Below are positions 20,581 through 38,334 of a stretch of DNA of 38,842 nucleotides, in pieces. The position numbers were made by a program, and so were the translations under genes. Source of the DNA: Desulfotomaculaceae bacterium (GTDB lineage Bacteria > Bacillota > Desulfotomaculia > Desulfotomaculales > Pelotomaculaceae). The notes beneath the pieces were generated by a model that searched no databases, had not been told where the DNA came from, and saw only the letters and a program-made list of their open reading frames with translations. The stretch is taken from the NCBI GenBank assembly GCA_028709235.1, contig JAQVXL010000015.1, positions 1 through 38,842 on the forward strand, read 5' to 3'. The number at the start of each line of letters is the position of its first letter. Within the stretch, counting starts at the first letter, position 1.

Positions 20581-20666
20581 AACGATTTAAGAATTATTAA
20601 TGAATTTTTCTTACAAGTCCAATTACCTTACCAATGATTTTCAAATCAGTTGCATAAATCGGTTCC
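20580..20666. repeat. Right direct repeat: functional 3' end of lexA
   Basis: Identical to 19137-19223. Here the repeat is continuous with lexA and supplies its last 22 codons and stop (20597-20599). Depending on whether one C/G pair is assigned to the element ends, the duplication is 85-87 bases. Confidence 0.95.
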
Positions 20667-21211
20667 ATCTGACAGTTTTCCGGCTGGAGTCTGACTCTAC
20701 TTTTTTCTCTGAAAAACCTCTTGACAGTTGCTTCCTCATCAGCAAGCAGTGCAACAACAATATCGCCGTTATTTACATCATTCTGACATCTGACGACAAC
20801 CATGTCTTCATCGAGTATGCCCGCCTCAATCATACTGTCCCCCCGTACAGTAAGCATGAAAAATTCGCCTATACCGGTAAAGTGAGTGGGGAGGGGGAAA
20901 ATGCCCTCCCTATTTTCAACCGCCAGAATAGGCATACCTGCTGCAACCCTGCCCAGCAGCGGCACATTAACGAATTCGACTTGATCCTCTTCAATGTTGT
21001 CAAGGACTTCCATCGCCCTTGGTTTTGCGGCGTCACGCCTCAGATAACCTTTGGCCTCAAGTTTTTTCAAATAACCATGGACAGTAGAGCTGGAACTTAA
21101 ACCAACTGCCTGACCAATCTCTCGTACAGAGGGAGGGTAGCCTTTCTGCTTGATATTTTTCTTTATGACCGCCAGGATGGCCGCCTGCTTGGGTGTGAGA
21201 TCAGAGTCCAT
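20597..21211 (-). CDS. lexA: SOS repressor LexA
   Basis: LexA represses SOS genes until RecA filaments stimulate its self-cleavage. The 204-residue protein is complete. The N-terminal winged helix-turn-helix spans residues 1-65 ([18 protein letters not shown]). The Ala91-Gly92 cleavage site lies in G-R-V-A-A-G-M-P, and the catalytic dyad is Ser126 (R-G-D-S-M) and Lys164 (A-T-V-K-R). The frame extends to 21277, but ATG 21209-21211 gives the family N-terminus. The IS1634-like element lies directly downstream, and the last 22 codons belong to the direct repeat. A LexA-type operator overlaps its promoter. Confidence 0.96.
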
Positions 21212-21245
21212 TTTGCACCAACCTTTACAACTATATTTATATAAA

Positions 21246-21284
21246 ATTATAACACAAAATAAACTAAATAGAAACACTTGTTCG
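21246..21284 (-). promoter_or_regulatory. lexA promoter with overlapping LexA operator
   Basis: On the minus strand a perfect TATAAT lies at 21246-21251. GAAACACTTGTTCG (plus strand, 21271-21284) fits the Gram-positive LexA box CGAAC-N4-GTTCG with one perfect half and three of five matches in the other. It covers the expected -35 region, so LexA should repress its own gene. Confidence 0.55.
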
Positions 21285-21385
21285 CAATTTTTATATTTAG
21301 CAATTTTTAATTATTAGAAGGATGAAATTCTAGAACGTCGAAATACAAATTATGATAGCATTGCATGAGGTAGGTAGGGTAAATA

Positions 21386-23092
21386 ATGAGAGTAATCAGA
21401 GTCGCTATTGCCGGTGCTGGTGAAGACGGTTACAAAGCGTACCGAATGTTGAAAGAAATTAAAGAAGTGTCTATAGCCGGCATTGCCGACAAAGACCACA
21501 CGGCACCCGGCATTATTACTGCTAAAAGTGAAGGCGTTTTCGTTGCGGAGGATATAAATATTCTCCTGAAAAAACCGGATCTGGATGTTATAATAGATGC
21601 AACATCCTCACCAGCGGATCTTGATTTTATACTACAAAATAAAAAATACAATACAGCAATAATGGAAGCCAAAGCCGCAAATTTAATAATTTCCATACTG
21701 AGAGAGAAGAAAGAAGAACTGCTCGAAATTAAGAGTATTAAGAGCCAGCTTTCGGCTATTCTCGATTCAGTCCAGGAAGCTATAGAAGTTGCTGATATAA
21801 ATGGGAACATAAAATTTGTAAACCCTGCTTTCTCCAAGATAACCGGCATACCTGAAGATAAAAGGATTAACCAGAATATTTTTGAAGCATCTCCTGATGG
21901 AGCGCTAGCAACGGTTTTGAAAACCGGAAAACTGGTATTCGGGCAAAGGACAAAAGTAGGCGGCAGCAACGCTGAGGTTGTCTCCAACGCGGCGCCGATT
22001 ATTGTTGACGGGGCTATGGACGGCGCTGTCGTAGTGTTTCAGCATTTTACAGATGTGATGAACCTGATGGAGGAACTGAAGAAGAGCACCAGCATTATTG
22101 AAAATCTTACAGATAAACTGGGGCAAGTAACAACCAGCAAATATACGTTCGATAATATTCTAGGGAGCAGTTTGGAAATAAAAAGATGTATTGACCTGGC
22201 GGAAAGATCTGCCCGCAGTAACACAACTGTCCTAATCCAGGGTGAAAGCGGAACGGGGAAGGAATTGTTCGCCCATGCCATTCACTCATCATCGATGCGG
22301 CGGGAGAATCCGTTTATTAAGGTTAACTGCGCCGCTATACCTGAGACGCTACTGGAAAGTGAGTTTTTCGGTTATGAAAAGGGAGCCTTTACCGGCGCGG
22401 TTAAATCAAAAATAGGTAAATTTGAACTGGCTCACAGCGGCTCGATATTTCTTGACGAAATAGGCGATATGAATCTGAACCTGCAGGGAAAACTCCTGCG
22501 GGTACTGCAGGAGATGGAGTTTGAACGCGTGGGCGGCACACAAACGACAAAAGTCGATGTAAGGGTCATAGCAGCGACCAACCGCAATCTGCGTGAATTA
22601 ATACGCCTGGGCAAGTTCAGGGAAGACCTTTTTTATCGGTTGAATGTCGTTGAAATAACAGTACCGCCGCTTAGAGTGCGCAAGGAAGACTTGCCTGTTC
22701 TTTTAGATAACCTTATTGTAAAATTAAACAGAAAACTAGGCAAAAAAGTTAAACGTGTAGATAGTAAAGCTATAGAATTGCTGGTGAATTATGATTGGCC
22801 GGGAAATATTCGCGAACTTGAAAACATGATCGAAAGAATTATGGTGACTATGGATGAGGAGGTTATAACCAAGAAAACCATGGTCATGCATACCAGCCAG
22901 TTTAAAATAATAACTCACGAACCGGATCTAGACCTGCTGCCTCTGGATCAAATGGAAGAAAGGATGGTTAAAAAAGCCCTGGCTAAATATGGCAATACAG
23001 TGGAAGGCAAAAAACGCGCTTCGCAGGCCCTCAATATCTCTTTGGCAACACTCTACAACAAACTTAAAAAATATAACCCTGAAAATATATAA
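21386..23092 (+). CDS. Sigma-54-dependent activator with Rossmann-like, PAS, AAA+ and HTH domains
   Basis: This 568-residue enhancer-binding protein probably controls the propionate operon that follows. Residues 1-100 look like a dinucleotide-binding Rossmann domain (V-A-I-A-G-A-G-E-D-G-Y, then D-V-I-I-D-A-T-S), as in acetaldehyde or homoserine dehydrogenases. Residues 120-230 form a PAS domain (A-I-L-D-S-V-Q-E-A-I-E-V-A-D). Residues 255-490 are the AAA+ domain with Walker A G-E-S-G-T-G-K-E, the sigma-54 contact loop G-A-F-T-G-A and Walker B I-F-L-D-E-I-G-D. The C-terminus is a Fis-type HTH (A-S-Q-A-L-N-I-S-L-A-T-L-Y-N-K-L). The start ATG has AGGTAGG upstream. It lacks a receiver domain, so it senses a ligand or redox state directly. 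Confidence 0.9.
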   Translation: MRVIRVAIAGAGEDGYKAYRMLKEIKEVSIAGIADKDHTAPGIITAKSEGVFVAEDINILLKKPDLDVIIDATSSPADLDFILQNKKYNTAIMEAKAANLIISILREKKEELLEIKSIKSQLSAILDSVQEAIEVADINGNIKFVNPAFSKITGIPEDKRINQNIFEASPDGALATVLKTGKLVFGQRTKVGGSNAEVVSNAAPIIVDGAMDGAVVVFQHFTDVMNLMEELKKSTSIIENLTDKLGQVTTSKYTFDNILGSSLEIKRCIDLAERSARSNTTVLIQGESGTGKELFAHAIHSSSMRRENPFIKVNCAAIPETLLESEFFGYEKGAFTGAVKSKIGKFELAHSGSIFLDEIGDMNLNLQGKLLRVLQEMEFERVGGTQTTKVDVRVIAATNRNLRELIRLGKFREDLFYRLNVVEITVPPLRVRKEDLPVLLDNLIVKLNRKLGKKVKRVDSKAIELLVNYDWPGNIRELENMIERIMVTMDEEVITKKTMVMHTSQFKIITHEPDLDLLPLDQMEERMVKKALAKYGNTVEGKKRASQALNISLATLYNKLKKYNPENI

Positions 23093-23100
23093 AATTAGAA

Positions 23101-23136
23101 CTTTATAAAATTTAGAAAATTTATAAAGTTTAGAAA
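23101..23136. promoter_or_regulatory. Dyad and direct repeat, candidate activator binding site
   Basis: CTTTATAAA (23101-23109) and TTTATAAAG (23120-23128) form a perfect nine-base inverted repeat. TTTATAAAATTTAGAAA (23102-23118) also recurs at 23120-23136 with one mismatch. It lies about 190-215 bases upstream of the sigma-54 promoter, a usual distance for an enhancer. It also follows the regulator stop directly, and AT-rich repeats can arise by chance. Confidence 0.4.
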
Positions 23137-23161: not shown

Positions 23162-23198
23162 ATACCATGTTTTTAATAATTAGAATATGGTATTTTTT
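23162..23198 (+). terminator. Likely terminator after the activator gene
   Basis: ATACCAT (23162-23168) pairs with ATGGTAT (23187-23193) and is followed by TTTTT. The stem is AT-rich with an 18-base loop, so strength is modest. The same dyad could be a protein-binding site. Confidence 0.45.
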
Positions 23199-23316: not shown

Positions 23317-23332
23317 TGGTACAGATCTTGCA
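23317..23332 (+). promoter_or_regulatory. Sigma-54 (-24/-12) promoter of the propionate operon
   Basis: TGGTAC-AGATC-TTGCA matches the sigma-54 consensus TGGCAC-N5-TTGCA at all but one fixed position, with the invariant GG and GC at the correct spacing. Transcription would begin near 23343, upstream of the GGGGGG ribosome binding site of the first fumarase gene. A sigma-54 activator gene lies immediately upstream. Confidence 0.8.
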
Positions 23333-23379
23333 TGTATATATTTAATTGTGAACAACACTTAGCAAAGGGGGGAATAAAA

Positions 23380-24222
23380 ATTAAAACCATTAACACCAGT
23401 GTCATTACGGAAAATGTAGCAAGGATGTGTCAGGAGGCTAACTTCAACCTTGGTGAGGACGTAATGGAAGCCTTCAAAAAAGGGTATGAGCAGGAAGTGT
23501 CCGCCACGGGAAAAGACATAATGCAGATTTTGATCAAAAATGCAGAGATAGCCCGTGAGGAGCAGGTCCCCATGTGCCAGGACTGCGGCTATGCGGTTAT
23601 TTTCCTGGAGTTGGGACAGGATGTCCGCATTGAGGGAGGAGACCTATACGAAGCAATAACTGAGGGGGTCAGGAGAGGATATACTGACGGCTACCTCAGA
23701 AAATCCATCGTGAGTCACCCGCTCGAGCGTAAGAATACCGGTGATAACACTCCTCCGGTGATTCATACTAAGATCGTCCCAGGTGAGAACCTAAAGATTA
23801 CCCTCGCGCCCAAAGGCGGCGGCAGCGAAAACATGAGCCAAATCAAAATGATGAAGCCAGCAGATGGTGTAGAAGGTGTAAAAGATTTTGTTATCGAGGT
23901 GGCTAAAAACGCCGGCCCGAACCCCTGTCCGCCAGTTATTTTAGGAGTCGGCATTGGCGGCACCATGGAGAAAGCAGCATTGCTCGCGAAGGAAGCGCTG
24001 CTCCGGGAGATTGGTTCTGAAAATGAAGATCCTGAAATGGCAAAGCTTGAAGAAGAACTTTTGGAAAAGGTAAACAACCTGGGAATCGGACCGCAAGGCC
24101 TGGGTGGCAGGACTTTTGCCCTGGCTGTACACATCAAAACATACGCTGCTCATATAGCCAGCTTGCCTGTAGCAGTCAACATCAACTGTCACGCCGCAAG
24201 GCATAAGGAAGTAGTCTTGTAA
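23380..24222 (+). CDS. Class I fumarase, alpha (N-terminal) subunit
   Basis: This is the larger part of a two-subunit 4Fe-4S fumarase that interconverts fumarate and malate. Cluster cysteines are expected in M-C-Q-D-C-G near residue 62, G-P-N-P-C-P-P near residue 180 and I-N-C-H-A-A-R-H at the C-terminus. The frame reaches back to ATG 23332, but that codon overlaps the sigma-54 promoter and would not be in the transcript. The strong GGGGGG (23367-23372) points to ATT at 23380-23382, which would give M-K-T-I-N-T-S-V-I-T-E-N-V, aligning with the usual family N-terminus (280 residues). The beta subunit follows after 58 bases. In syntrophic propionate oxidation it hydrates fumarate to malate. Confidence 0.92.
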   Translation: MKTINTSVITENVARMCQEANFNLGEDVMEAFKKGYEQEVSATGKDIMQILIKNAEIAREEQVPMCQDCGYAVIFLELGQDVRIEGGDLYEAITEGVRRGYTDGYLRKSIVSHPLERKNTGDNTPPVIHTKIVPGENLKITLAPKGGGSENMSQIKMMKPADGVEGVKDFVIEVAKNAGPNPCPPVILGVGIGGTMEKAALLAKEALLREIGSENEDPEMAKLEEELLEKVNNLGIGPQGLGGRTFALAVHIKTYAAHIASLPVAVNINCHAARHKEVVL

Positions 24223-24280: not shown

Positions 24281-24841
24281 TTGACACAGATCAGGCTTAC
24301 TACCCCATTAACTGACGCAGATGTAGAAAAGCTTAGAATCGGGCAGCAAGTTTTAATCAGCGGCCTCATTTATACCGGCCGGGACGCCGCTCACAAGAGA
24401 ATGGTGGATCTGATCAAGGCAGGAAAAGTCAATGAACTGCCCTTTGACCCGAAAGGTCAGATTATTTACTATGTAGGTCCGAGTCCTACAAAGCCTGGGA
24501 GAGTTGTTGGTTCCTGCGGACCCACGACCAGTTACCGCATGGATCCATACGCTCCCGAACTATACAAACTGGGCCTGAAAGCCTCTATCGGCAAGGGGAA
24601 AAGATCCCCGGAAGTAATCGAGGCCATGAAAAAGTACAAGGGTGTATACTTCGCGGCTATTGGCGGCGCCGCAGCCTTGATTGCCAAGAGTATCAAGAGT
24701 GCCAAGGTTATAGCTTATCCGGATCTCGGAGCTGAAGCCGTCCATGAATTTGTGGTTGAAGATTTCCCCGTGGTAGTTGTTAACGATACCCTGGGTGGCG
24801 ATCTCTATCAGGAAGGCATAAAGATTTATGCTGTTAAATAA
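24281..24841 (+). CDS. Class I fumarase, beta (C-terminal) subunit
   Basis: This 186-residue subunit is the swivelling domain of the two-subunit iron-sulfur fumarase. Family motifs are L-I-S-G-L-I-Y-T-G-R-D-A-A-H-K-R near residue 30, Y-Y-V-G-P-S-P-T and G-S-C-G-P-T-T-S-Y-R-M-D, then A-A-I-G-G-A-A-A-L. The frame extends to ATG 24251, but TTG at 24281 lies 7 bases after GGGGAGGTG and gives the family N-terminus, so I use it. It works with the alpha subunit directly upstream. A 474-base gap with short reading frames follows before succinyl-CoA synthetase. Confidence 0.93.
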   Translation: MTQIRLTTPLTDADVEKLRIGQQVLISGLIYTGRDAAHKRMVDLIKAGKVNELPFDPKGQIIYYVGPSPTKPGRVVGSCGPTTSYRMDPYAPELYKLGLKASIGKGKRSPEVIEAMKKYKGVYFAAIGGAAALIAKSIKSAKVIAYPDLGAEAVHEFVVEDFPVVVVNDTLGGDLYQEGIKIYAVK

Positions 24842-25315: not shown

Positions 25316-26431
25316 GTGAAAATGTTCGAGTACATGGGTAAGGAGCTATTTGCCAAGTACGGTATCCCAACTCCGAAAGGCAGAATGGCTAAGACTCCAG
25401 AAGAGGCCGAAAAGATCGCTGCGGAAATTGGTGGTCCATGTGTGGTAAAGTCGCAGGTCCTGTCAGGCAAGAGAGGTAAAGCTGGGGGTATTAAGTTTCC
25501 TAACACGCCAGAAGAAGCCAAGAAGGCTGCGGAAGAAGTTCTCAGTATGACCATCCAGGGACTACCTGTCGAGTGCGTCTTGGTGGAAGAAAAGTTGAAA
25601 ATCGACAAGGAACTCTACATGTCGATAACCGTCGACGGTTCTGCCAAGCAAGCTGTCATGATCGCTTCCGCTTACGGTGGGATGGAAATTGAAGCCCAGC
25701 CGGAAGAGTACATCATTAAGAAGCACATCGATCCTGAGCTCGGCATGCATCCTTTCTTCGCTCGTGACGTTGTAAGAAGAATGGGCGTAGAACTAAGAAG
25801 CCCGCACGGAAAAGAAATGATAAATATAATTCAAACCCTTTACAAGATTTGCAAAGAAAAAGATGCTGAACTGGTTGAAATCAACCCGCTGGTGTTTAGT
25901 GACGACAGGGTAATAGCAGCTGATTCTAAAGTAACTATTGACGAAGACGCCCTGTTCCGGATGAAAGAACTGCCGTTTGTCGAAGATAAATCACCTGCTG
26001 AAAGAGCAGCAGCGGACCTCGGCCTTTCCTTTGTGGATCTGGATGGCGATATCGCTGTAATGGCCAACGGCGCCGGCATTACCATGGGTACTCTAGACAC
26101 TCTGCAGGCTTTCGGCGGCACACCGAGGAACTTTCTCGACTGCGGTGGCGGCACCGGTAGGGAAGCCACTGCCAAAGCATTAGATATTCTCCTGGGCCTA
26201 GAACCCAAAGGTATGTTCATTAATATTTTCGGCGGTATTACCCGCTGCGATGATGTAGCCAATGCATTTAAGGATGTTTATGAAGCACGCGGCGGCTTCC
26301 CGGTACCGGTAGTAATCCGTCTTGTCGGCACCAACCAGGATGCTGGCCGGGAAATCCTGAGGTCCATCGGCGTTGAAGCCTTCGACTTCATGGAAGACGC
26401 AGCCAAAAGGATAATTGAGCTTACTAAGTAA
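25316..26431 (+). CDS. sucC: Succinyl-CoA synthetase (ADP-forming), beta subunit
   Basis: SucC is the nucleotide-binding subunit of succinate-CoA ligase. In this pathway succinyl-CoA is converted to succinate with ATP formation, the only substrate-level ATP step before acetate. The ATP-grasp N-terminus is visible (K-E-L-F-A-K-Y-G-I-P, C-V-V-K-S-Q-V near residue 42, L-V-E-E-K-L). So is the C-terminal flavodoxin-like domain with L-D-C-G-G-G-T and N-I-F-G-G-I-T-R-C-D near residue 303, which binds the phosphate loop. At 371 residues it is slightly shorter than the usual 385-390. The start GTG is 10 bases after GAGGAGAG; ATG 25322 is an alternative. Confidence 0.94.
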   Translation: MKMFEYMGKELFAKYGIPTPKGRMAKTPEEAEKIAAEIGGPCVVKSQVLSGKRGKAGGIKFPNTPEEAKKAAEEVLSMTIQGLPVECVLVEEKLKIDKELYMSITVDGSAKQAVMIASAYGGMEIEAQPEEYIIKKHIDPELGMHPFFARDVVRRMGVELRSPHGKEMINIIQTLYKICKEKDAELVEINPLVFSDDRVIAADSKVTIDEDALFRMKELPFVEDKSPAERAAADLGLSFVDLDGDIAVMANGAGITMGTLDTLQAFGGTPRNFLDCGGGTGREATAKALDILLGLEPKGMFINIFGGITRCDDVANAFKDVYEARGGFPVPVVIRLVGTNQDAGREILRSIGVEAFDFMEDAAKRIIELTK

Positions 26432-26498
26432 TTATCCTTTGCATTAAAGCTAAGTCGCTTGAATCCATAAAATACTTAATAAGGGAGGATAAGTAAAA

Positions 26499-27371
26499 TT
26501 GGCTATTATCATTGATGAGAATACTAATGTATTAGTCATGGGAATTACCGGCAGACAAGCTTCTTTTCACACCAAGCAGATGCTTGCCTATGGGACCAAG
26601 ATTGTTGCCGGATGCACCCCCGGCAAAGGCGGGCAGGAAGTAGAGGGGGTTCCTGTATACAACACTGTGCGTGAAGCCTGTGAGAAGCACCGGATCGATG
26701 CCTCAGTCATATTTGTTCCCGCCCCCGGAACTAAAGACGCCGCTCTGGAAAACCTGGAAGCAGGGGTCAAGGTAGTCGTTATCATAACTGAAGGCGTACC
26801 TGTATATGATGAAATCGATATTGTTGCCTATGCCAGGCGTAAGGGAGCTTATGTGCTCGGACCGAACACCTTCGGCATCGTTTCAGGTGGCAAGTGCAAG
26901 ATGGGTATTCCGCCTAACCAGTATTTTATTGAGGGCGATGTTGGCGTAGTTGCCCGCTCCGGCACCTTAACCTATGAAATCGTCGGCAACCTGACCGCTA
27001 ACGGCCTCGGTCAGTCCACCGTTGTAGGTATGGGCGGCGACCGGGCAGTGGGTTTGACCTTCGTTGACGTTTTAAAAATGTTTGAAAAGGACGACCAGAC
27101 CAAGGCTGTGGTGCTGATTGGTGAAATTGGCGGCAACAACGAAGAGATCGCTGCCGAGTATATCAAGGAAATGACCAAGCCCGTGGTTGCTTTCATCGCT
27201 GGCAAGAGCGCGCCTCCAGGAAAGCGGATGGGACATGCTGGAGCCATTATTGAGCGCGGCAAGGGAACCTACCAGGGTAAAGTCGAAGCTTTGACAGCTG
27301 CAGGCGCCAAAGTTGCCCCGTTGCCGTTCGAAGTTCCCGCGCTGATTAAAGAGGCGCTTGGAAGAAAATAA
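26499..27371 (+). CDS. sucD: Succinyl-CoA synthetase, alpha subunit
   Basis: SucD carries the catalytic phosphohistidine and binds CoA. The 290-residue protein has the N-terminal CoA-binding fold with V-M-G-I-T-G-R-Q-A-S-F-H near residue 14 and I-T-E-G-V-P-V near residue 95. G-P-N-T-F-G near residue 126 is a family motif. The phosphorylated histidine lies in G-H-A-G-A-I-I near residue 247. The start is TTG behind GGGAGG. It follows sucC by 67 bases and is followed within 25 bases by the mutase large subunit, so the genes are one unit. Confidence 0.95.
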   Translation: MAIIIDENTNVLVMGITGRQASFHTKQMLAYGTKIVAGCTPGKGGQEVEGVPVYNTVREACEKHRIDASVIFVPAPGTKDAALENLEAGVKVVVIITEGVPVYDEIDIVAYARRKGAYVLGPNTFGIVSGGKCKMGIPPNQYFIEGDVGVVARSGTLTYEIVGNLTANGLGQSTVVGMGGDRAVGLTFVDVLKMFEKDDQTKAVVLIGEIGGNNEEIAAEYIKEMTKPVVAFIAGKSAPPGKRMGHAGAIIERGKGTYQGKVEALTAAGAKVAPLPFEVPALIKEALGRK

Positions 27372-27395
27372 TAAGGTATGGAAGGAGGAGATCTT

Positions 27396-29066
27396 TTGTT
27401 TAAACAAGATCAACTGGACAAAATTGCAGCTGGCAAAGAGAAATGGGCTGCGAAGCTGGAAGCGACAGTAAAAAAGCGCCCGGAAAGAGAGCCTGAGTTT
27501 GCTGTTGATTCCGGTATTACCATTAACACTGTTTATACACCACTCGATCTCGCAGATATGGATTACGAAAAAGACCTGGGAATGCCCGGGGAATATCCGT
27601 ATACCCGGGGTGTGCAGCCTAACTTATACCGTGGCCGTCTCTGGACCATGCGCCAGTATGCCGGGTTTGGCTCGGCAGATGAAACCAACCAGCGTTTCCG
27701 CTACCTGCTGGAGCAAGGACAAACAGGTTTAAGCTGCGCTTTTGACCTGCCTACCCAGATTGGTTATGACTCAGACCATCCGCTGGCACGGGGCGAGGTT
27801 GGTAAAGTGGGCGTGGCCATTGACTCCCTGGCGGACATGGAAACACTCTTTGACCAGATCCCGCTGGGTAAGGTCAGCACCTCGATGACCATCAATGCGC
27901 CGGCGGGCATACTGCTAGCCATGTATATCGCCTGTGCGGAAAAGCAAGGTTTTACAAAGTCAGAAATCAACGGTACTATTCAAAATGACGTAATTAAGGA
28001 ATATATCTGCCGGGGCACATACATCCTGCCACCGGAACCCTCAATGCGTCTTATCTCCAACATCTTTGAGTTTTGCTCCAAGGAAATTCCGCAGTGGAAT
28101 ACCATTAGCATCAGTGGTTACCACATCCGTGAGGCCGGCGCCACCGCCGCCCAGGAAATTGCTTTCACACTTGCCGATGGTATCGCCTATGTAGACGCTG
28201 CTATAAAATCCGGTTTAGACGTAGATGCTTTTGGTGGACGTCTTTCGTTCTTCTTTAATGCCCACCTGAACTTCCTCGAGGAAGTCGCCAAATTCCGGGC
28301 AGCAAGACGCGTCTGGGCAAGAATTATGAGAGAACGCTTCGGCGCAAAAAATCCACGGTCATGGACCCTGCGTTTCCACACTCAGACTGCCGGCGTCAGC
28401 CTGACAGCACAGCAGCCAATGGTCAATATCATGCGTACTGCTTATGAAGCTCTGTCAGCTGTGCTGGGCGGCACCCAATCCCTGCACACCAACTCTTACG
28501 ACGAAGCGCTGGCGTTGCCCTGCGACGAGTCAGTGATGATCGCCCTGCGCACCCAGCAGGTAATAGGATATGAAATTGGTGTCTGTGATCTGGTTGACCC
28601 GCTGGGCGGTTCTTATTACATTGAAAGCCTGACCAACGCTCTCGAAGAAAAGGCCATGGATTACATTGGTAAGATCGACGCCCTTGGCGGCGCTGTTAAG
28701 GCCATTGAGTTCATGCAGAAGGAAATTCACAATTCTGCCTATCAGTACCAGCTGGCTATTGACAACAAAAAGAAAACTGTTATCGGTGTCAACAAGTTCC
28801 AAATGGAAGAAAAACCGCCTGAGGGCCTGTTAAAAGTTGACCTTTCTGTCGGTGAACGCCAGGTAGAAAAACTGAAGAAAGTGAAAGCTGGAAGAGACCA
28901 AGCCAAGGTAGAATCCTTGCTGAAAGCAGTGCGTGAAGCAGCGCAGAGCGATGCCAACATGATTCCTGTATTTGTCGAAGCTGTCAAAGAATACGTGACT
29001 CTCGGTGAGATTTGCGACGTTCTGAGAGATGTATTTGGTGAGTACAAGCAGCAAATTGTATTCTAA
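27396..29066 (+). CDS. Methylmalonyl-CoA mutase, large (catalytic) subunit
   Basis: This 556-residue chain is the substrate-binding TIM-barrel half of a split adenosylcobalamin-dependent methylmalonyl-CoA mutase, which rearranges (R)-methylmalonyl-CoA to succinyl-CoA. The N-terminus has the CoA-channel segment [10 protein letters not shown]. Further in are the substrate-contacting [22 protein letters not shown] near residue 232 and L-H-T-N-S-Y-D-E-A near residue 360. It ends before any cobalamin domain, which is encoded by the next gene. TTG 27396 follows GGAGGAG at good distance; an in-frame ATG at 27378 precedes that ribosome binding site. No MeaB-type chaperone GTPase gene is in the window. 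Confidence 0.95.
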
Positions 29067-29083
29067 GAGAAGGAGGAAAGCAG

Positions 29084-29479
29084 ATGAGCGAGAAACGCAT
29101 ACGTGTTCTGGTCGCAAAACCAGGCCTTGACGGTCACGATCGGGGAGCAAAAGTAATTGCCCAGGCCCTTCGTGACGGGGGCATGGAAGTTGTCTATACG
29201 GGCTTAAGACAGACCCCTGAACAGATTGTATCAGCGGCTTTGCAGGAAGACGTAGATGTTGTCGGCATGAGCATTCTTTCTGGAGCCCATGCAACCCTGT
29301 TCCCCGAAGTAGTAAACCTGCTGAGAGAAAAGGGCGCAGGTGATATTCTTGTAGTAGGTGGCGGGATTATCCCTGATGAAGATGTCCCCGCTTTAAAAGA
29401 AGCAGGTGTCGCTGAAATCTTTGGTCCGGGCACCCCACTGGCAAATGTTGTTAATTACATCAAGGAAAAAGTAAACTAA
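29084..29479 (+). CDS. Methylmalonyl-CoA mutase, small (cobalamin-binding) subunit
   Basis: This 131-residue protein is the B12-binding flavodoxin-like domain of the split mutase. Asp16, His18 and Gly21 in G-L-D-G-H-D-R-G form the D-x-H-x-x-G motif whose His replaces dimethylbenzimidazole as lower cobalt ligand. The S-I-L-S-G-A-H loop and V-V-G-G-G-I-I-P near the C-terminus complete the S-x-L and G-G cobalamin tail site. It starts 17 bases after the large subunit behind GGAGG. Stand-alone small subunits of this kind are common in archaea and syntrophic Firmicutes. Confidence 0.95.
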
Positions 29480-29506
29480 TCATAAGATAGACTAATTTAC
29501 AGAGTT

Positions 29507-29579
29507 CAGGGCAGTCCGGATTGACCGGTTACTGCCCTGCACCAAACCTGTTTTAACAAGGGTTAGGTTACAAGGTTTG
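29507..29579 (+). other. Strong hairpins between mutase and epimerase genes
   Basis: CAGGGCAGT (29507-29515) pairs perfectly with ACTGCCCTG (29531-29539), with a further CCGG/CCGG pair inside. A second dyad, CAAACCT (29543-29549) with AGGTTTG (29573-29579), follows. There is no T-run behind the first stem, so it is not a normal intrinsic terminator. It could be an RNA processing or stabilising element or a weak attenuator that sets expression of downstream genes. Confidence 0.55.
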
Positions 29580-29606
29580 TGAATCCAAAAACATGGAGGG
29601 AGTCGG

Positions 29607-30005
29607 ATGCTAAAAAAGATTGACCACATTGGAATTGCGGTCAAAGATCTTGCTGAAGCCACTAAGTTTTATGAGGCACTGGGATTAAAACCAGTCGGAA
29701 CAGAGATAGTGGAAGAACAAAAAGTAAAAGTGGCATTTTTCCCCTTAGGCGACAGTGAAGTGGAATTACTGGAATCAACAGCGCCGGATGGCCCCATTGC
29801 TAAATTTATAGAAAAAAATGGTGCGGGAATCCAGCATATTGCTTTCCGGGTTGACAATATTGAAAAAGCGTTAGCGAACCTCAAGGAACAAGGTATCCGT
29901 TTAATTGACGAAAAGCCTAGGTATGGCGCTGGTGGAGCTAAAATTGCATTTTTGCACCCGAAATCCACCTTTGGTGTTCTGATCGAACTGAGTGAGCGCG
30001 ACTAG
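29607..30005 (+). CDS. mce: Methylmalonyl-CoA epimerase
   Basis: This 132-residue VOC-fold protein interconverts (S)- and (R)-methylmalonyl-CoA, linking the carboxyltransferase product to the mutase. The start [11 protein letters not shown] supplies the first metal histidine. The second half has G-I-Q-H-I-A-F-R-V (another metal His) and ends F-G-V-L-I-E-L, with the metal and catalytic Glu in the final strand. Length equals the family norm. GGAGGGAG precedes the ATG, and the carboxyltransferase gene starts 15 bases after its stop. Confidence 0.95.
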
Positions 30006-30020
30006 AATGGAGGTAATCGC

Positions 30021-31559
30021 ATGAGTATGCAGGAGAAACTGGATATTCTAAATAAGCTGCGGGCCGAAGTAGATGCCGGCGGTGGTCAAAAGAGAATTGA
30101 CAAGCAGCATTCCGGCGGCAAATATACCGCCAGGGAAAGAATCGCAAAGCTGTTTGACGAAGGTTCCTTCAAAGAAATAGATGTTTTTGCAAATACAGAA
30201 GTGGACTACAGGTCTGTAAAGAACCCGAACGAAGGTGCTATAGGCGGTTACGGCGCCATGAACGGCCGTAAAGTATTTATTTTTGCCCAAGATTTTACTG
30301 TTGTAGGCGGTTCACTGGGCCGGGTACACGCTGCCAAGATCTGTAAAGTGCTAGATATGGCAATGAAGGTCGGAGCACCGGTTATTGGTTTGTGTGACTC
30401 CGGTGGCGCACGTATTCAGGAAGGTGTGGACGCTCTCGACGGTTACGGCCAAATATTCTTCCGCAACACTATTGCCTCCGGTGTTATTCCACAGATTTCC
30501 GTGATAATGGGACCATGTGCAGGCGGTGCGGTTTATTCACCGGCACTAACCGACTTTATCTTCATGGTCCAAAATACCAGCCAGATGTTTATCACCGGCC
30601 CGCTGGTAATTAAGGCCACCACTGGTGAAGATGTCAGTCAAGAAGCCCTCGGAGGCGCTGCTACCCATAACCAGATTAGCGGTGTGGCGCACTTTATGGC
30701 TGCAAATGAAGACGATTGCATAGCCCAGATTAAAACTCTGGTTAGCTACCTGCCATTGAATAACTTAGAAGAACCTCCGACCTACCCCGGGGTTGAGCCG
30801 TCTTTAGATAAGGAAACACTGTTTACCGTAATACCGGACAATCCGAACAAGGGTTATGATGTCCGTAATATCATCAACGGAGTAGTAGACGCCGGATCGT
30901 TTTTTGAAGTGCACCAGTACTATGCTACTAATGGTGTGGTAGGCTTTGCCCGTGTTAATGGTCAGGTGGTGGGAATTATCGCCAACCAACCCAGAGTACT
31001 GGCAGGCTGCCTTGACATCAATGTTTCGGACAAGATTGCCAAACAAATCCGTTTCTGCGACTGCTTCAATATACCGATTATCACGTTTATGGATGTTCCG
31101 GGATTCCTTCCTGGTGTTCAGCAGGAATACGGCGGCATCATCCGGCACGGTGCCAAGATGCTCTACGCATATTCTGAAGCTACCGTGCCTAAAATTACAA
31201 TTATTACCCGTAAGGCATACGGCGGCGCCTACTTGGCCATGTGTGCAGCTTCACTGCGGGCTGACACCACATTTGCGTGGCCCAGTGCTGAAATAGCTGT
31301 TATGGGCCCTGAAGGTGCTGTTAACGTAATCAACCGCAAGGAAATTGCCGCGGCTGAAAATCCAGTTGAAACGCGCCAGCAGTTGGTGCAGGATTATCGC
31401 GATCGTTTTGCCAACCCGTATATCGCTAGCGCCAGAGGCTTTGTCGAAGACGTTATCGATCCTAGAGATACCAGAGCTAGGATTATTAATTCTCTTTGGA
31501 ATCTGTCCACCAAGCGCGAAAGCAGACCCAAAAAGAAACATGGAAACATTCCCATGTAG
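30021..31559 (+). CDS. mmdA: Methylmalonyl-CoA carboxyltransferase / propionyl-CoA carboxylase-type subunit (12S, MmdA)
   Basis: This 512-residue carboxyltransferase has two crotonase-like domains. It moves CO2 between carboxybiotin and the alpha carbon of propionyl-CoA, giving (S)-methylmalonyl-CoA. The N-terminal domain has G-G-S-L-G-R-V-H-A near residue 95, C-D-S-G-G-A-R-I-Q-E-G and G-P-C-A-G-G-A-V-Y-S-P. The C-terminal domain has F-M-D-V-P-G-F-L-P-G and K-A-Y-G-G-A-Y-L-A-M, the oxyanion-hole glycines. With the biotin carrier and the 5S subunit downstream it forms a transcarboxylase set. No integral-membrane decarboxylase beta subunit is present, which favours transcarboxylation over a sodium-pumping decarboxylase. 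Confidence 0.94.
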   Translation: MSMQEKLDILNKLRAEVDAGGGQKRIDKQHSGGKYTARERIAKLFDEGSFKEIDVFANTEVDYRSVKNPNEGAIGGYGAMNGRKVFIFAQDFTVVGGSLGRVHAAKICKVLDMAMKVGAPVIGLCDSGGARIQEGVDALDGYGQIFFRNTIASGVIPQISVIMGPCAGGAVYSPALTDFIFMVQNTSQMFITGPLVIKATTGEDVSQEALGGAATHNQISGVAHFMAANEDDCIAQIKTLVSYLPLNNLEEPPTYPGVEPSLDKETLFTVIPDNPNKGYDVRNIINGVVDAGSFFEVHQYYATNGVVGFARVNGQVVGIIANQPRVLAGCLDINVSDKIAKQIRFCDCFNIPIITFMDVPGFLPGVQQEYGGIIRHGAKMLYAYSEATVPKITIITRKAYGGAYLAMCAASLRADTTFAWPSAEIAVMGPEGAVNVINRKEIAAAENPVETRQQLVQDYRDRFANPYIASARGFVEDVIDPRDTRARIINSLWNLSTKRESRPKKKHGNIPM

Positions 31560-31592
31560 TAATGAATACCGGCGTGTAGGAGGATATAACAA

Positions 31593-31790
31593 ATGGCTAA
31601 ACAAAAAGCAAAGGCCGGTATTAAACCCGAGATGCTCGCCGCTATCTCAGCGGCTGTGGCTCTTTACGGTTACTCGGCAGAGACAGGCTACCAGATCAGG
31701 AGCGTGACCAATGCTGGTAATGCGTGGAAAAGAGCTGGCATTGCCGAATTAATGCTTGGCCGTGATTTGAGTATGAGGGATTTCCTGTAA
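31593..31790 (+). CDS. Small accessory subunit of the methylmalonyl-CoA carboxyltransferase
   Basis: This 65-residue protein lies between the 12S and biotin-carrier genes, behind AGGAGG. An Ala-rich helix (E-M-L-A-A-I-S-A-A-V-A-L-Y-G-Y) is followed by R-S-V-T-N-A-G-N-A-W-K-R-A-G-I-A-E-L-M. The W-x-x-A-G-x-x-E-x-M ending resembles the C-terminal assembly segment of OadG/MmdD and of the epsilon subunit MmdE in sodium-pumping decarboxylases. It has no clear membrane anchor, so it may only keep an assembly role in a soluble complex. The function is inferred from that motif and from position. Confidence 0.7.
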   Translation: MAKQKAKAGIKPEMLAAISAAVALYGYSAETGYQIRSVTNAGNAWKRAGIAELMLGRDLSMRDFL

Positions 31791-31838
31791 GACAATGGGC
31801 AACGAGTACAGGCCTACCATTTAGGAGGGAAATTTTGC

Positions 31839-32255
31839 ATGAAAAAATTCAAAATTAAAGTTAATGAAGAAATCTTTGAAGTAGAAGTTGAAGAAATCGG
31901 CGGCAGTCCGGCGGCAGCAGCGCCAGTAGCTCCCCCGACAGCTCCTGTAGCGGCACCCCCGCCGGCTCCGGCACCTGCTGCAACACCAGCCCCGGCAGCT
32001 CCGGCAGCGGCGGCACCCAAGCCAGCAGCAGGCGGTGGCGGTGGTGGCGCTCTGTGCGCCCCGATGCCCGGAACCGTACTTGATGTTAAAGTAAAAGTCG
32101 GTGATGCCGTCAATATTGGCGATGTTCTGTTAATCCTGGAAGCCATGAAAATGGAAAACGAACTTACCGCCGACAAGGCAGGCACAATTAAGGAAGTTAA
32201 GGTAACCAAGGGACAGGCTGTAAACGGTGGCGATGTCCTTATAGTGATTGGTTAA
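31839..32255 (+). CDS. Biotin carboxyl carrier subunit (1.3S / gamma)
   Basis: This 138-residue protein carries biotin on Lys104 in the E-A-M-K-M-E-N motif and shuttles the carboxyl group between the 5S and 12S subunits. Residues 1-20 are a small charged N-terminal segment (K-I-K-V-N-E-E-I-F-E-V) that normally docks to the complex. Residues 24-65 form a flexible Pro/Ala linker. Residues 70-138 are the biotinyl domain with A-P-M-P-G-T-V at its start. AGGAGGG precedes the ATG. The layout is typical of propionibacterial 1.3S and MmdC-like proteins. Confidence 0.95.
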   Translation: MKKFKIKVNEEIFEVEVEEIGGSPAAAAPVAPPTAPVAAPPPAPAPAATPAPAAPAAAAPKPAAGGGGGGALCAPMPGTVLDVKVKVGDAVNIGDVLLILEAMKMENELTADKAGTIKEVKVTKGQAVNGGDVLIVIG

Positions 32256-32264
32256 ATATAAAAA

Positions 32265-32322
32265 CCGGTGGGAGTTGGAAAAATCGGACTTCCACCGGAA
32301 ATGAACAACATTTTTTGTTCAT
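32265..32322 (+). other. Two consecutive hairpins before malate dehydrogenase
   Basis: CCGGTGGGAGT (32265-32275) folds with ACTTCCACCGG (32288-32298) into an 11-pair stem with one G-U pair. ATGAACAA (32301-32308) folds perfectly with TTGTTCAT (32315-32322), followed by A residues. Neither is followed by a T-run in the direction of transcription, so partial termination or RNA processing is more likely than full termination. Confidence 0.55.
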
Positions 32323-32333
32323 AAAAAAATTAG

Positions 32334-33281
<948 letters not shown>

Positions 33282-33318
33282 AAAAGTCCGGCTAGCGATA
33301 AAAGGGGAGGATAATAAG

Positions 33319-34719
33319 ATGGCAAAAGGACCAAAAGCTGTATTAATTACCGATACTACTTTCCGGGATGCCCACCAGTCCCTGTTGGCTACCCGAATGA
33401 AGACAGAGCATATGATTCCGATCGCGGAGAAACACGATGAGATTGGCTTCCATTCCATGGAAATGTGGGGCGGCGCGACTTTTGACACCTGCATGCGTTT
33501 CTGTGGTGATGATCCCTGGGAGCGGCTCAGGGTGATCAGGCGCCACCTGAAAAAAACCAAGACCCAGATGCTGCTGAGAGGCCAAAATATCGTCGGTTAC
33601 AGGAACTATGCCGACGATGTGCTAATCGAATTTATTAAAAAAGCGGTCTTTAACGGCATGGATATTTTCCGCTGTTTTGACGCTTTGAACGACTACCGCA
33701 ACCTGGAAGTCGCGATAAAAACCGTTCTTGAGGAAGGCGCACACGCCCAAGGCACAATTTGTTACGCGATCAGCCCTGTGCACACGGTTGAGCACTATGT
33801 CGATAAAGCTAGAGAACTTGAAAGTATGGGTGTTCAATCCATCTGCATCAAGGACATGGCTGGCATCATCGCTCCTTACATTGTCCATGACATAGTCAAA
33901 GGCATGAGGGACGCCGGGATCAAGGTTCCCATCCAGATCCACTGTCACTACACCAGCGGCATGGGTTCCATGGCTTACATGAAGGGTATTGAAGCTGGCG
34001 CTAACATCATTGACTGCGCTATATCACCAATGTCATCACAGACTTCACAGCCGTCAATCGAAGTAATGTGTTCAGCATTTGCAGGAACTGAATATGACAC
34101 TGGCTTAGATCTTGAGCCTATGATTGAACTGGCCGACTACTGGAAAGAAATCCGCCCGCTGTACGCATCCTTCGACTTGGCACAAAAATACCCCGACGCC
34201 GGTATCCTGGTATCTCAGGTGCCAGGCGGCATGATGTCCAACTTCCTGTCCCAGCTCCAGCAGGCCAATGCTCTGCACCGGCTGCCTGAAGTGCTAGCTG
34301 AGATGCCACGGGTGCAAGAAGATTTTGGCTGGCCGCCGCTGGTAACCCCGTCCAGTCAGATCGTAGGTTCACAGGCAGTGCTGAACGTCCTGATGGGACG
34401 CTATAAAATGAACACAAACGAAGTTAAGCAGTACATGCGCGGTTATTACGGACGGCCTCCGGCGCCGATTAACGAGGAGGCCCGCAAGATGATTATCGGC
34501 GATGAGCAGCCGATCACCTGCCGTCCGGCCGACATGCTTGAGCCCGAACTTCCGAAGGCCAAGGAAACTATCGCGTATGTAATGGAAAAGGAAGAAGACA
34601 TTATTTCCAACGCCATCTACCCGCAGGTAGCGCCAAAGTTCCTTGAGGAAAGAATGGCCAAGAAGCTTAAGGTAGATGTTGATCTCGCCAAACAGAGCAG
34701 CCAATACTATCCTGTATAG
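33319..34719 (+). CDS. Transcarboxylase 5S-type subunit (pyruvate/oxaloacetate carboxyltransferase)
   Basis: This 466-residue HMGL-like TIM-barrel protein takes the carboxyl group from oxaloacetate onto biotin, leaving pyruvate. Metal and substrate residues are in D-T-T-F-R-D-A-H-Q-S (residues 12-21), the carbamylated lysine is expected in S-I-C-I-K-D-M-A-G near residue 177, and two metal histidines are in I-H-C-H-Y-T-S-G near residue 211. The C-terminal third carries P-S-S-Q-I-V-G-S-Q-A and the conserved segment around Y-G-R-P-P-A-P-I. It has no biotinyl domain of its own, so it must use the separate carrier upstream. GGGGAGG precedes the ATG. Confidence 0.94.
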   Translation: MAKGPKAVLITDTTFRDAHQSLLATRMKTEHMIPIAEKHDEIGFHSMEMWGGATFDTCMRFCGDDPWERLRVIRRHLKKTKTQMLLRGQNIVGYRNYADDVLIEFIKKAVFNGMDIFRCFDALNDYRNLEVAIKTVLEEGAHAQGTICYAISPVHTVEHYVDKARELESMGVQSICIKDMAGIIAPYIVHDIVKGMRDAGIKVPIQIHCHYTSGMGSMAYMKGIEAGANIIDCAISPMSSQTSQPSIEVMCSAFAGTEYDTGLDLEPMIELADYWKEIRPLYASFDLAQKYPDAGILVSQVPGGMMSNFLSQLQQANALHRLPEVLAEMPRVQEDFGWPPLVTPSSQIVGSQAVLNVLMGRYKMNTNEVKQYMRGYYGRPPAPINEEARKMIIGDEQPITCRPADMLEPELPKAKETIAYVMEKEEDIISNAIYPQVAPKFLEERMAKKLKVDVDLAKQSSQYYPV

Positions 34720-34824: not shown

Positions 34825-37800
34825 ATGGCCAATAACAAGATGAAGACGATGGACGGCACCAAGGCAGCGGCATACGTATCGTATGCGTTTACTGAGTGCG
34901 CCTGCATTTTTCCCATCACTCCATCATCACCCATGGCGGAATACGTGGATGAGTGGAGCGCTCAAGGTAAAAAGAACATCTTCGGTCAAACCGTAAACGT
35001 TACTGAAATGCAATCAGAAGCCGGCGCTGCCGGGGCTTTGCACGGCGCGCTATCAGCAGGTGCGCTGTCAACCAGCTACACCGCTTCCCAGGGCTTGCTG
35101 CTGATGATCCCGAACATGTACAAAATAGCCGGTGAGCTCCTGCCGGGTGTACTGCACGTCACCGCCCGCAGTCTGGCGACCCACGCCCTGAACATTTTTG
35201 GCGACCATTCCGACGTTATGTCCACTGTACAGACCGGTTGGGCGATGCTGTGCACGAACAGTGTCCAGGAAATTATTGACCTTGCTCCTGTTGCCCACGC
35301 GGCCGCTATCAAGTCTAGGATACCTTTCCTGCACTTCTATGATGGATTCCGGACCTCGCACGAGCAGCAAAAAGTAGAAATGATCGAATATGAAGACTAT
35401 GAAAAGCTAATCGACATGGATGAAGTTAAGGCATTCCGCGACAGGAGCTTGAACCCGGACCGTCCGGTTACCAGAGGCTCGAACCAGAACCCGGACATTT
35501 TTTTCCAGGCTAGAGAGGCCTGTAGCCCGTTCTTTGAGCCAGTTGCAGACATAGTGGCAGATTATATGAAGCAAATAGGCAATATCTGCGGCAGGTATTA
35601 TAAGCCGTTTGATTATTATGGCGCGCCGGATGCTGAAAACATTATCATTGCCATGGGCTCCATCTGCGACGCAGCTGAAGAAACAATAAACTATCTTATG
35701 GCCAAGGGCGAGAAGGTCGGTATTATTAAGGTGCACCTGTACAGACCCTGGTCGCCTAAATACCTCTTTGCAGTGCTGCCCAAGACTGTGAAGAAGATTG
35801 CTGTCCTTGACAGAATTAAGACTCCCGGATGTCCCGGCGAACCTCTGTACATGGATGTCAAGAATACTTTCTACGATGCCGATATGAAGCCAATTATCGT
35901 AGGCGGCCGCTATGGCCTTGGTTCTAAGGACACTGTGCCCGCTGACATCGTAGCTGTATTTGAAAACCTGAAAGCTGATCAGCCGAAGAACAACTTTACC
36001 ATCAGTATCATAGATGACGTTTCCAATACCTCACTGCCGAGAGGCGAAGATATTGACGTTACTCCGGAAGGGACTATCCAGTGCAAATTCTGGGGACTTG
36101 GTTCCGACGGCACAGTAGGCGCCAACAAGCAGGCGGTAGAAATTATTGGTGACCACACCGGCCTTTACGCGCAAGCATATTTTGCCTATGACTCCAAAAA
36201 GTCCGGCGGTATCACCGTTTCTCACTTGCGTTTTGGCAAAAAGCCGATCAAAGCGCCATATCTGATTAACACGGCTGACTTCGTATCTTGCAGCAATCAG
36301 GCTTATGCCAACATGTATGATTTAACCGCTGGACTCAAGCCGGGCGGCGCTTTCCTCCTCAACTGCGTATGGACGCCGGAAGAACTGGATGAAAAACTGC
36401 CGGCCAAGATGAAGAGGTACATTGCTAAGAATAAGATTAACTTCTTTACCATAAATGCTGTGGAACTGGCAAGAGGAATTGGACTGGGCAACCGTACCAA
36501 TATGATCATGCAGTCCGCTTTCTTTAAACTGTCCAGAGTTATTCCTATCGACGAAGCTGTTGGCTACATGAAAGACCAGATCCAGAAATCCTATGGCAAA
36601 AAAGGTGAGAAAATCGTCAACATGAACAACGCCGCAGTTGACGCCGGTATCAACAACCTGGTAAAGATAGATGTACCGGCTGAATGGGCAAACGCACCTG
36701 ATGACGTTGTAAAAGATAAAAAGGATCCAGAATTCATTGAAAACATACTGCGTACGATGACCAGGCAAGAGGGAGACAGCCTGCCGGTCAGCGCCTTCAA
36801 GGGTGCAGAAGACGGCACCTTCCCGTCTGCCACATCAAAATTTGAAAAGCGTGGTGTAACAGCATTTGTGCCCAGGTGGATCAAGGAAAACTGCATCCAG
36901 TGCAACCAGTGCTCATTGGTATGCCCCCACGCTACCATCAGGCCGTTCTTATTAGACGAGGAAGAAGCTAATAGAGCTCCGAAAGAGTTTGAAACGCTGA
37001 AAGCTGTTGGCAAGCAACTGGCAGGACTGACCTACCGCATGCAGGTTTCACCACTTGACTGTATGGGCTGCGAACTCTGCGTCAATTGCTGCCCGTCCAA
37101 GGAGAAAGCCCTTGTGATGGAAAGCATTGAGAGCCAGGTTGACGTTGAAGCCGCCAACTGGGAATTCGCTACTACCGTTTCAATTAAAGACAACCTCTGG
37201 AACAAGTACAGTGTCAAGGGCAGCCAGTTCTGCCAGCCGTTATTTGAGTTCAACGGCGCCTGCGGCGGCTGCGGTGAAACACCATACATCAAACTTTTGA
37301 CTCAGCTTTACGGCGACAGGATGTTGATGGCCAACGCCACGGGATGCTCCTCTATTTATCCCGCTGCCGCACCGTCCATGGCATACTGCAAAAACGCTGA
37401 AGGCAAAGGTCCCGCCTGGTCCAACTCACTGTTTGAAGACAGCGCAGAATTTGGATTGGGATTATACCTTGGCGTCAAACAAATCAGAAATAAAATAGCT
37501 GATTTGGCACAAGAAGCTATGGCCCAGGACATTCCCGCTGAGACTAAAGAAGCCCTGCAGGGATGGTTGGACAACATGTTGCTTGGTGATGGCTCCAAGG
37601 AAGCCACATCCAAGCTCCTGCCTCTGCTTGAAGGAGCAGACAACCCGACTCTGAAACAAATCTATGACTTGAAAGATTTCCTCATCAAGAAGTCCAACTG
37701 GTCATTCGGCGGCGACGGCTGGGGCTATGACATCGGCTACGGCGGTCTTGACCACGTGCTGGCATCAGGCGAAGACATCAACATTCTGGTCTTAGACACT

Positions 37801-38334
37801 GAAGTCTATTCCAACACCGGCGGTCAGTCCTCCAAGGCCACTCCAACCGCTGCTATAGCTAAATTTGCCGCAGCCGGCAAGGAAACCAAGAAGAAAGATC
37901 TGGGCGCCATGGCCATGACCTACGGTTATGTCTATGTGGCGCAGGTGGCAATGGGTGCAGACCAGGCACAATGCGTCAAAGCTTTCAAAGAAGCTGAGGC
38001 GTATCCTGGCCCGTCCCTGATCATTGCTTACTCCTCCTGCATCAACCACGGGATTAACATGACCCGCAGCCAGCAAGAAATGGACAAAGCTGTCAAGAGC
38101 GGTTACTGGCATCTCTACAGGTACAATCCTGAGCTCAAGAAAGAGGGCAAGAACCCGTTTACTTTGGATTCCAAGGAACCTAACCTGGATCTGTTCAGAG
38201 AATTTATCATGGGTGAAGTTCGCTACAATTCCCTGGCGAAGCTCTTCCCGGCGACAGCGGAAGCGCTGTTCCAGAAGACACAGGCAGATGCCAAGGAAAG
38301 ATACGCATCTTATAAGCGCATGGCACAAAGTTAA
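34825..38334 (+). CDS. nifJ: Pyruvate:ferredoxin (flavodoxin) oxidoreductase, single-chain
   Basis: This 1169-residue homodimeric-type enzyme oxidises pyruvate to acetyl-CoA and CO2 with reduction of ferredoxin. Order of domains: pyrimidine-binding domain I with the F-T-E-C-A-C-I-F-P-I-T-P-S-S segment (residues 17-30); a transketolase-C-like domain with R-P-W-S-P-K near residue 308; the gamma domain from about 430; and a two-cluster ferredoxin domain with C-I-Q-C-N-Q-C starting at residue 690 and C-M-G-C-E-L-C at 746. The C-terminal TPP domain has G-A-C-G-G-C-G-E-T-P, G-D-G-W-G-Y-D-I-G and V-Y-S-N-T-G-G-Q-S-S. Length and motifs are complete. It disposes of the pyruvate released by the transcarboxylase. 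AAGGAGG precedes the ATG. Confidence 0.97.
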   Translation: MANNKMKTMDGTKAAAYVSYAFTECACIFPITPSSPMAEYVDEWSAQGKKNIFGQTVNVTEMQSEAGAAGALHGALSAGALSTSYTASQGLLLMIPNMYKIAGELLPGVLHVTARSLATHALNIFGDHSDVMSTVQTGWAMLCTNSVQEIIDLAPVAHAAAIKSRIPFLHFYDGFRTSHEQQKVEMIEYEDYEKLIDMDEVKAFRDRSLNPDRPVTRGSNQNPDIFFQAREACSPFFEPVADIVADYMKQIGNICGRYYKPFDYYGAPDAENIIIAMGSICDAAEETINYLMAKGEKVGIIKVHLYRPWSPKYLFAVLPKTVKKIAVLDRIKTPGCPGEPLYMDVKNTFYDADMKPIIVGGRYGLGSKDTVPADIVAVFENLKADQPKNNFTISIIDDVSNTSLPRGEDIDVTPEGTIQCKFWGLGSDGTVGANKQAVEIIGDHTGLYAQAYFAYDSKKSGGITVSHLRFGKKPIKAPYLINTADFVSCSNQAYANMYDLTAGLKPGGAFLLNCVWTPEELDEKLPAKMKRYIAKNKINFFTINAVELARGIGLGNRTNMIMQSAFFKLSRVIPIDEAVGYMKDQIQKSYGKKGEKIVNMNNAAVDAGINNLVKIDVPAEWANAPDDVVKDKKDPEFIENILRTMTRQEGDSLPVSAFKGAEDGTFPSATSKFEKRGVTAFVPRWIKENCIQCNQCSLVCPHATIRPFLLDEEEANRAPKEFETLKAVGKQLAGLTYRMQVSPLDCMGCELCVNCCPSKEKALVMESIESQVDVEAANWEFATTVSIKDNLWNKYSVKGSQFCQPLFEFNGACGGCGETPYIKLLTQLYGDRMLMANATGCSSIYPAAAPSMAYCKNAEGKGPAWSNSLFEDSAEFGLGLYLGVKQIRNKIADLAQEAMAQDIPAETKEALQGWLDNMLLGDGSKEATSKLLPLLEGADNPTLKQIYDLKDFLIKKSNWSFGGDGWGYDIGYGGLDHVLASGEDINILVLDTEVYSNTGGQSSKATPTAAIAKFAAAGKETKKKDLGAMAMTYGYVYVAQVAMGADQAQCVKAFKEAEAYPGPSLIIAYSSCINHGINMTRSQQEMDKAVKSGYWHLYRYNPELKKEGKNPFTLDSKEPNLDLFREFIMGEVRYNSLAKLFPATAEALFQKTQADAKERYASYKRMAQS

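Follow-up and report, generated by a model that had tools for sequence, protein, structure and literature searches.

A cluster of the same kind as the one analysed here is the mmc cluster of Pelotomaculum thermopropionicum; the abstract of the 2006 work of Kosaka on it is said to mention several promoter sequences besides a gene for a regulator. In this work, fumarase was reportedly proposed as the metabolic switch of syntrophic propionate oxidisers; what throws this switch is not known to us from the literature. As for sigma-54 activators with a Rossmann-type sensor, RtcR is one without a PAS domain. Its sensor is a CARF (Rossmann) domain binding RtcAB (PMC9650030). At the level of translation, IF3 represses the non-canonical starts of infC and of Streptomyces sigR (GTC; PMC5472188). 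The main text of a sigma-54 regulon survey of Clostridiales (PMC6615313) contains neither fumarate nor Pelotomaculum.

The locus and the regulator MmcA

The window, that is, the whole stretch of 38,842 nucleotides analysed here (contig JAQVXL010000015.1 of a Desulfotomaculaceae bacterium), carries the following genes and sites.

21386 to 23092, forward: mmcA, sigma-54 activator of 568 aa, assigned by domain matches and a structure model; Rossmann domain of NAD type at residues 1-104, PAS at ~121-220, AAA+ at 258-424, Fis-type HTH at 520-563
23317 to 23332, forward: sigma-54 promoter TGGTACAGATCTTGCA, conserved in relatives; -24 GG 23318-23319, -12 GC 23330-23331, predicted +1 23343
23364 to 23372, forward: Shine-Dalgarno sequence AAAGGGGGG, conserved in the family
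23380 to 24222, forward: fumarase alpha subunit (mmcB), start most likely ATT 23380, not ATG 23332
24281 to 24841, forward: fumarase beta subunit (mmcC), TTG start
25316 to 27371, forward: succinyl-CoA synthetase subunits (25316-26431 and 26499-27371)
27378 to 30005, forward: both subunits of methylmalonyl-CoA mutase (large and small) and a protein of the glyoxalase family, the probable epimerase
30021 to 34719, forward: carboxyltransferase, biotin carrier, malate dehydrogenase and PYC_OADA-type carboxyltransferase
34825 to 38334, forward: pyruvate:ferredoxin oxidoreductase

The initial annotation had placed a gene for a sigma-54 activator before the promoter and a fumarase gene directly after it. 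Indeed, the gene at 21386-23092 carries the activator domains, and the downstream gene encodes a class I fumarase alpha subunit. In MmcA, the AAA+ domain contains the Walker A motif GESGTGKE (286-293) and the GAFTGA motif (333-338), and the C-terminal HTH matched PF02954. The N-terminus matched the Pfam family GFO_IDH_MocA with an E value of 3.5e-4 and 21.7 bits, just below the 24-bit cut-off. Residues 1-104 were modelled with a pLDDT mostly of 80-94 and showed a beta-alpha-beta fold, GxGxxG and an acidic residue ending strand 2. When orthologs were compared, GxGxxG (G10, G12, G15) and D35 were invariant or nearly so. The best structural matches of this predicted domain were NAD-dependent dehydrogenases, with an acylating aldehyde dehydrogenase as the best (Z 13.1, 2.2 Å over 102 residues). 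The top Foldseek matches of the MmcA model were PAS domains, and the Rossmann match came mainly from a second structural comparison; the PAS domain was best matched by the cytoplasmic PAS of CitA (Z 14.3, 2.2 Å over 105 residues).

The NAD-type Rossmann domain opens MmcA (21386-21700) and is seemingly missing from the majority of the other sigma-54 activators that these genomes encode. Since the alignments of most of these to MmcA begin only near residue 97, the domain seems to be typical of MmcA orthologs. The chances that it binds NAD(H) appear evenly balanced, and the signal of MmcA may be the redox state. A Rossmann fold by itself does not prove NAD binding or give the ligand, and binding of another ligand or of a partner protein must be given a probability a little short of even. 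Such binding has a precedent in RtcR (PMC9650030); against it stand the GxGxxG motif, the acidic residue ending strand 2 and the NAD-dependent dehydrogenases as the best structural matches.

Promoter, probable operators and their distribution

The site TGGTACAGATCTTGCA, which had been noted for its exact GG/GC spacing, was confirmed by position and by a pattern scan: exactly 10 bases separate GG and GC, giving an exact GG-N10-GC, and the start expected near 23343 agrees with their position when computed from the sequence. The site lies 225 bp 3' of mmcA and 48 nt 5' of the fumarase-alpha start codon (ATT 23380). It is close to the consensus TGGCACG-N4-TTGCW: an approximate matrix, which we wrote ourselves from the published consensus, gave it 17.0 bits, the maximum being 19.3. 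Within the window it is the only match to TGGYACRNNNNTTGCW with zero mismatches. The 2.27-Mb genome contains 4 exact matches, against 1 for the reversed-pattern control; of the remaining three, two fall within long ORFs, and the last overlaps an ORF of 119 aa that carries a Nitro_FeMo-Co domain. From this density of exact matches, about 2e-4 are expected per 240-bp gap on one strand. Comparing the intergenic region with E. coli gave no match, which had been expected. Furthermore, rpoN, which had been named as a check, is present in the genome with all three sigma-54 domains (AID, CBD, DBD).

Between mmcA and fumarase, and before mmcA, we observed repeated boxes of the form TTMTA-N5-TAGAA, a motif derived by eye from the mmcA-fumarase gaps.

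21305 to 21319, forward: operator-like site before mmcA, TTTTAATTATTAGAA, one mismatch; in most relatives
23103 to 23117, forward: probable MmcA operator 1, TTATAAAATTTAGAA, exact TTMTA-N5-TAGAA; centre ~-233
23121 to 23135, forward: probable MmcA operator 2, TTATAAAGTTTAGAA, exact TTMTA-N5-TAGAA; centre ~-215
23171 to 23185, forward: probable MmcA operator 3, TTTTAATAATTAGAA, one mismatch; centre ~-165

Operator 3 is the perfect palindrome TTCTA-N5-TAGAA in most relatives. In the family, the first and second boxes are mostly 18-19 bp apart, and the second box and the downstream palindrome 49-50 bp. Every mmcA-fumarase gap tested, those of Desulfofundulus (L133, L136) and Thermincola (L140, L144, L145, L167) included, contained 1-4 boxes with at most one mismatch, where 0.03-0.23 were expected from shuffles; these per-gap tests lean toward the motif because it was derived from the same gaps. 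In 4 of the 17 family genomes the gap has a single box, and there the excess was not significant alone (P 0.11-0.155). Exact matches occur at 7 distinct places in the 2.27-Mb genome, two of them here, 18 bp apart; the scan of the genome is informative in this respect even though its total of 8 matches, against 13 for the reversed control, shows no excess. By their sequence positions, the conserved boxes lie 165-233 bp 5' of the predicted start, a distance within the range of about 80-250 bp at which enhancer-binding proteins usually have their sites. These boxes are probably MmcA operators.

In the genome-wide scan for further MmcA targets in the assembly, other exact matches were near genes without an evident link. 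The palindrome at C75:7185 was rejected as an MmcA target, being part of a c-di-AMP riboswitch. This riboswitch (L215 3169-3341, G000:C75; 94.6 bits) lies 5' of a dapB-like gene and is unrelated to MmcA. As the other exact matches belong to a riboswitch or stand near genes without an evident link, an MmcA regulon of one operon is the likeliest in this assembly. Two operator-like boxes with one mismatch each, partly conserved, lie 5' of mmcA at 21305-21342, and autoregulation of mmcA through the upstream box is possible. A divergent lexA (20597-21285) also precedes mmcA, with a LexA-operator-like CGAACAAGTGTTT box shared across most of the family; cross-talk of lexA with mmcA expression is possible.

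The family set consisted of 25 Pelotomaculaceae genomes, 24 of them with fumarase. An mmcA ortholog (~69% identity or more) adjoins fumarase in 17, the window's genome included, and the sigma-54 site was present in all 17, with scores of 14.9-17.8 (matrix maximum 19.3) and at 62-84 bases 5' of the fumarase start codon. P. propionicicum MGP (L113) is among the named members with the site. The expectation that the same -24/-12 motif would precede fumarase in relatives was thus borne out, as it recurs in Pelotomaculum and across the order. In an alignment of 14 species, TGG.A......TTGC was the sole invariant block 5' of the Shine-Dalgarno region.

A wider set comprised 145 fumarase loci, within the order and outside it; 52 had both the site and an adjacent MmcA-like activator, 85 neither, 5 the site only and 3 the activator only. 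The two agree in 137 loci (Fisher p ~1e-29, phylogeny ignored); because the loci are related, this value is not independent of phylogeny. On the tree there are only 5 well-supported independent contrasts, of which 3.6 on average went in the same direction and 0 in the opposite one, so few that significance is out of reach. Activator and promoter share both their presence and their loss. UBA3103 (L068/L114) has a 92% identical fumarase without mmcA and without the site; the divergent lexA now stands beside fumarase, and the gap keeps the Shine-Dalgarno end only. The stretch 4196-5840 of L114 is a natural joint loss of mmcA and the sigma-54 promoter, with lexA abutting the fumarase operon. In genus g5, an adjacent mmcA is absent and the site is present or decayed (TGGTGCGGATCTTGCA, AGGTATGGATCTTGCA, AAGTGCGGATCTTGCG); genus g3 has neither. 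The switch is therefore dispensable in some relatives: UBA3103 and g3 do without both parts, and g5 without the regulator and with a partly decayed promoter.

In Desulfofundulus and one Peptococcaceae genome, the mutase lies 3' of the module, as in the window, and in Desulfofundulus the succinyl-CoA synthetase does as well. In Thermincola, the same regulator, operators and promoter stand before fumAB-sdh genes; therefore, the module tracks fumarase, not propionate oxidation as such. As the signal, redox state or a C4-dicarboxylate would agree with this better than propionate would. The initial annotation had read the site as an enhancer-type switch of the methylmalonyl-CoA operon of a propionate oxidiser. 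The switch itself is upheld by the promoter, the dedicated activator and their joint occurrence and loss; it is not specific to propionate oxidation, given Thermincola.

Main transcription of the operon might instead come from a sigma-A promoter, 5' of mmcA or within the operon, with the sigma-54 site supplying a minor inducible share; read-through from mmcA may likewise contribute to expression without the signal. UBA3103 and genus g3, which have fumarase without the site, and the multiple promoter sequences reportedly mentioned for the P. thermopropionicum cluster in the 2006 abstract would agree with this. However, the mmcA-fumarase gap has no more sigma-70-like hexamer pairs than chance would give (2 found, 2.6 expected), and operators and promoter have been conserved for so long that a main role is favoured, which makes the sigma-A reading unlikely. 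That the -24/-12 match is a chance resemblance, as the exact matches elsewhere in the genome, some inside genes, might suggest, is hardly credible and was rejected, given the low expectation per gap, recurrence in 17 of 17 relatives, co-occurrence with the activator, and a block that is the sole invariant one 5' of the ribosome-binding region. Accordingly, TGGTACAGATCTTGCA is very probably a genuine sigma-54 promoter, at which a regulator of its own, driven by ATP, turns on the genes for propionate degradation.

The start codon of the fumarase alpha subunit

The mechanical ORF of the alpha subunit opens with ATG 23332, which overlaps the -12 element, is upstream of the predicted +1 (23343) and is not conserved. 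By homology, the start is ATT 23380, behind AAAGGGGGG. The aligned start was ATT, ATA or ATC (AUH in the transcript) in 24 of 24 Pelotomaculaceae; in the rest of the order it was mostly ATT, ATC, ATA, TTG or GTG, with ATG in three only. Outside the order the aligned residue is mostly ATG, and the position of the start is therefore fixed. Furthermore, residue 2 counted from ATT 23380 matches position 2 of the fumarate hydratase profile. As a control, the other operon genes start with ATG, GTG or TTG at the aligned positions in almost all cases; the mutase is the exception, as its start in the window is not the conserved one. The start of infC was readable in 20 family genomes and was ATT or ATC in all of them.

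We consider it very likely, from these comparisons, that fumarase-alpha starts at AUU (23380). A canonical start, with the AUH codon internal, is improbable: the window does offer the in-frame ATG 23332, and a canonical codon is present upstream in frame in 8 of the 24 family members, but in the other 16 no ATG, GTG or TTG occurs before the first in-frame stop upstream, ATG 23332 is unconserved and precedes the predicted +1, and the AUH codon is favoured by homology, by its spacing from the Shine-Dalgarno sequence and by the fumarate hydratase profile alike. Part of the order has a canonical codon 3-18 nt further upstream, which could be used in its place.

A strict link between the AUH start and the sigma-54 site was rejected, since 17 AUH genes lack the site and 13 canonical genes have it. 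Selection keeping AUH was looked for on the tree, where about 11-12 third-base changes within AUH against about 3 from AUH to ATG gave no clear departure from neutral. An RNA structure hiding the Shine-Dalgarno sequence was likewise rejected, as the leader folded no better than shuffles. We found no literature linking fumarase with AUU or another non-canonical start.

Proposed mechanism and comparison with known systems

We consider control of the mmc operon by sigma-54 and MmcA probable on the sequence evidence above. MmcA, encoded just upstream, would bind two or three TTMTA-N5-TAGAA operators 165-233 bp 5' of the predicted start, touch the polymerase carrying sigma-54 with its GAFTGA loop and spend ATP on opening the promoter near 23343. 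If the Rossmann domain binds NAD(H), MmcA, together with its PAS domain, would report the redox or electron-sink state. That basal expression of the operon could be fully off without the signal, as the initial annotation had suggested, goes beyond the present evidence. On the mmc transcript, translation of fumarase-alpha would start at AUU 23380 behind a strong Shine-Dalgarno sequence, and discrimination by IF3 would therefore be a further condition of its synthesis, in the manner of infC and Streptomyces sigR. As IF3 represses these two starts, such control is a reasonable idea, which by analogy we put forward as tentative. With the sigma-54 switch and the rare AUU start, this energy-starved bacterium may gate its central pathway twice. 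Rather unlikely as a whole is a control with two locks, in which the MmcA Rossmann domain reads NAD(H) directly and opens the operon only at a suitable redox state, and IF3 acting against AUU, AUA or AUC then limits the amount of fumarase-alpha.

The locus presents a testable circuit consisting of a regulator, operators, a promoter, NAD/NADH as the candidate signal and a second point of control, in translation. An infC-type start seemingly conserved in a catabolic gene across a family would extend the range of genes in which non-canonical starts are known, and gene callers that accept no codon but ATG, GTG and TTG would put the start of fumarase-alpha in the wrong place. If the two locks were real, they would amount to a conserved brake on metabolism at the level of translation, in bacteria living near the thermodynamic limit.

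Beyond what is reportedly described for P. thermopropionicum, the operators, the Rossmann domain, the AUH start and the spread across the order are described here. With NtrC/NifA-class systems the locus shares GG-N10-GC, rpoN, an AAA+ domain with GAFTGA, a Fis HTH and repeated operator-like boxes 165-233 bp upstream; it differs in that the target is a fumarase/methylmalonyl-CoA operon and in that an NAD-type Rossmann domain precedes PAS in MmcA. The closest curated model is PrdR, the proline reductase regulator of Clostridioides difficile (NCBIfam NF041552), whose PAS-AAA+-HTH part aligns at residues 82-564; however, MmcA reached 444.6 bits against a cut-off of 795, and its N-terminal domain falls outside the match. 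PrpR, the regulator of propionate catabolism, is likewise a sigma-54 activator linked to propionate but regulates another pathway, and MmcA scored 304.6 bits with TIGR02329 against a cut-off of 499.2; a profile search gave no match of MmcA to the PrpR_N sensor domain. RtcR resembles MmcA in carrying a Rossmann-type sensor on a sigma-54 activator, whereas its sensor is of the CARF type and its target an RNA repair operon (PMC9650030). As in fumarase-alpha, a conserved start other than ATG, GTG or TTG behind a good Shine-Dalgarno sequence is found in infC (ATT/ATC) and in Streptomyces sigR (GTC; PMC5472188), and the start codon class of fumarase-alpha is that of infC in the same genomes; unlike these two, fumarase-alpha is a catabolic enzyme, for which IF3 control is a tentative proposal. 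Thus, a sigma-54 promoter with its activator is of a well-known kind, and the Rossmann-PAS activator, the operators and the AUH start are what differs.
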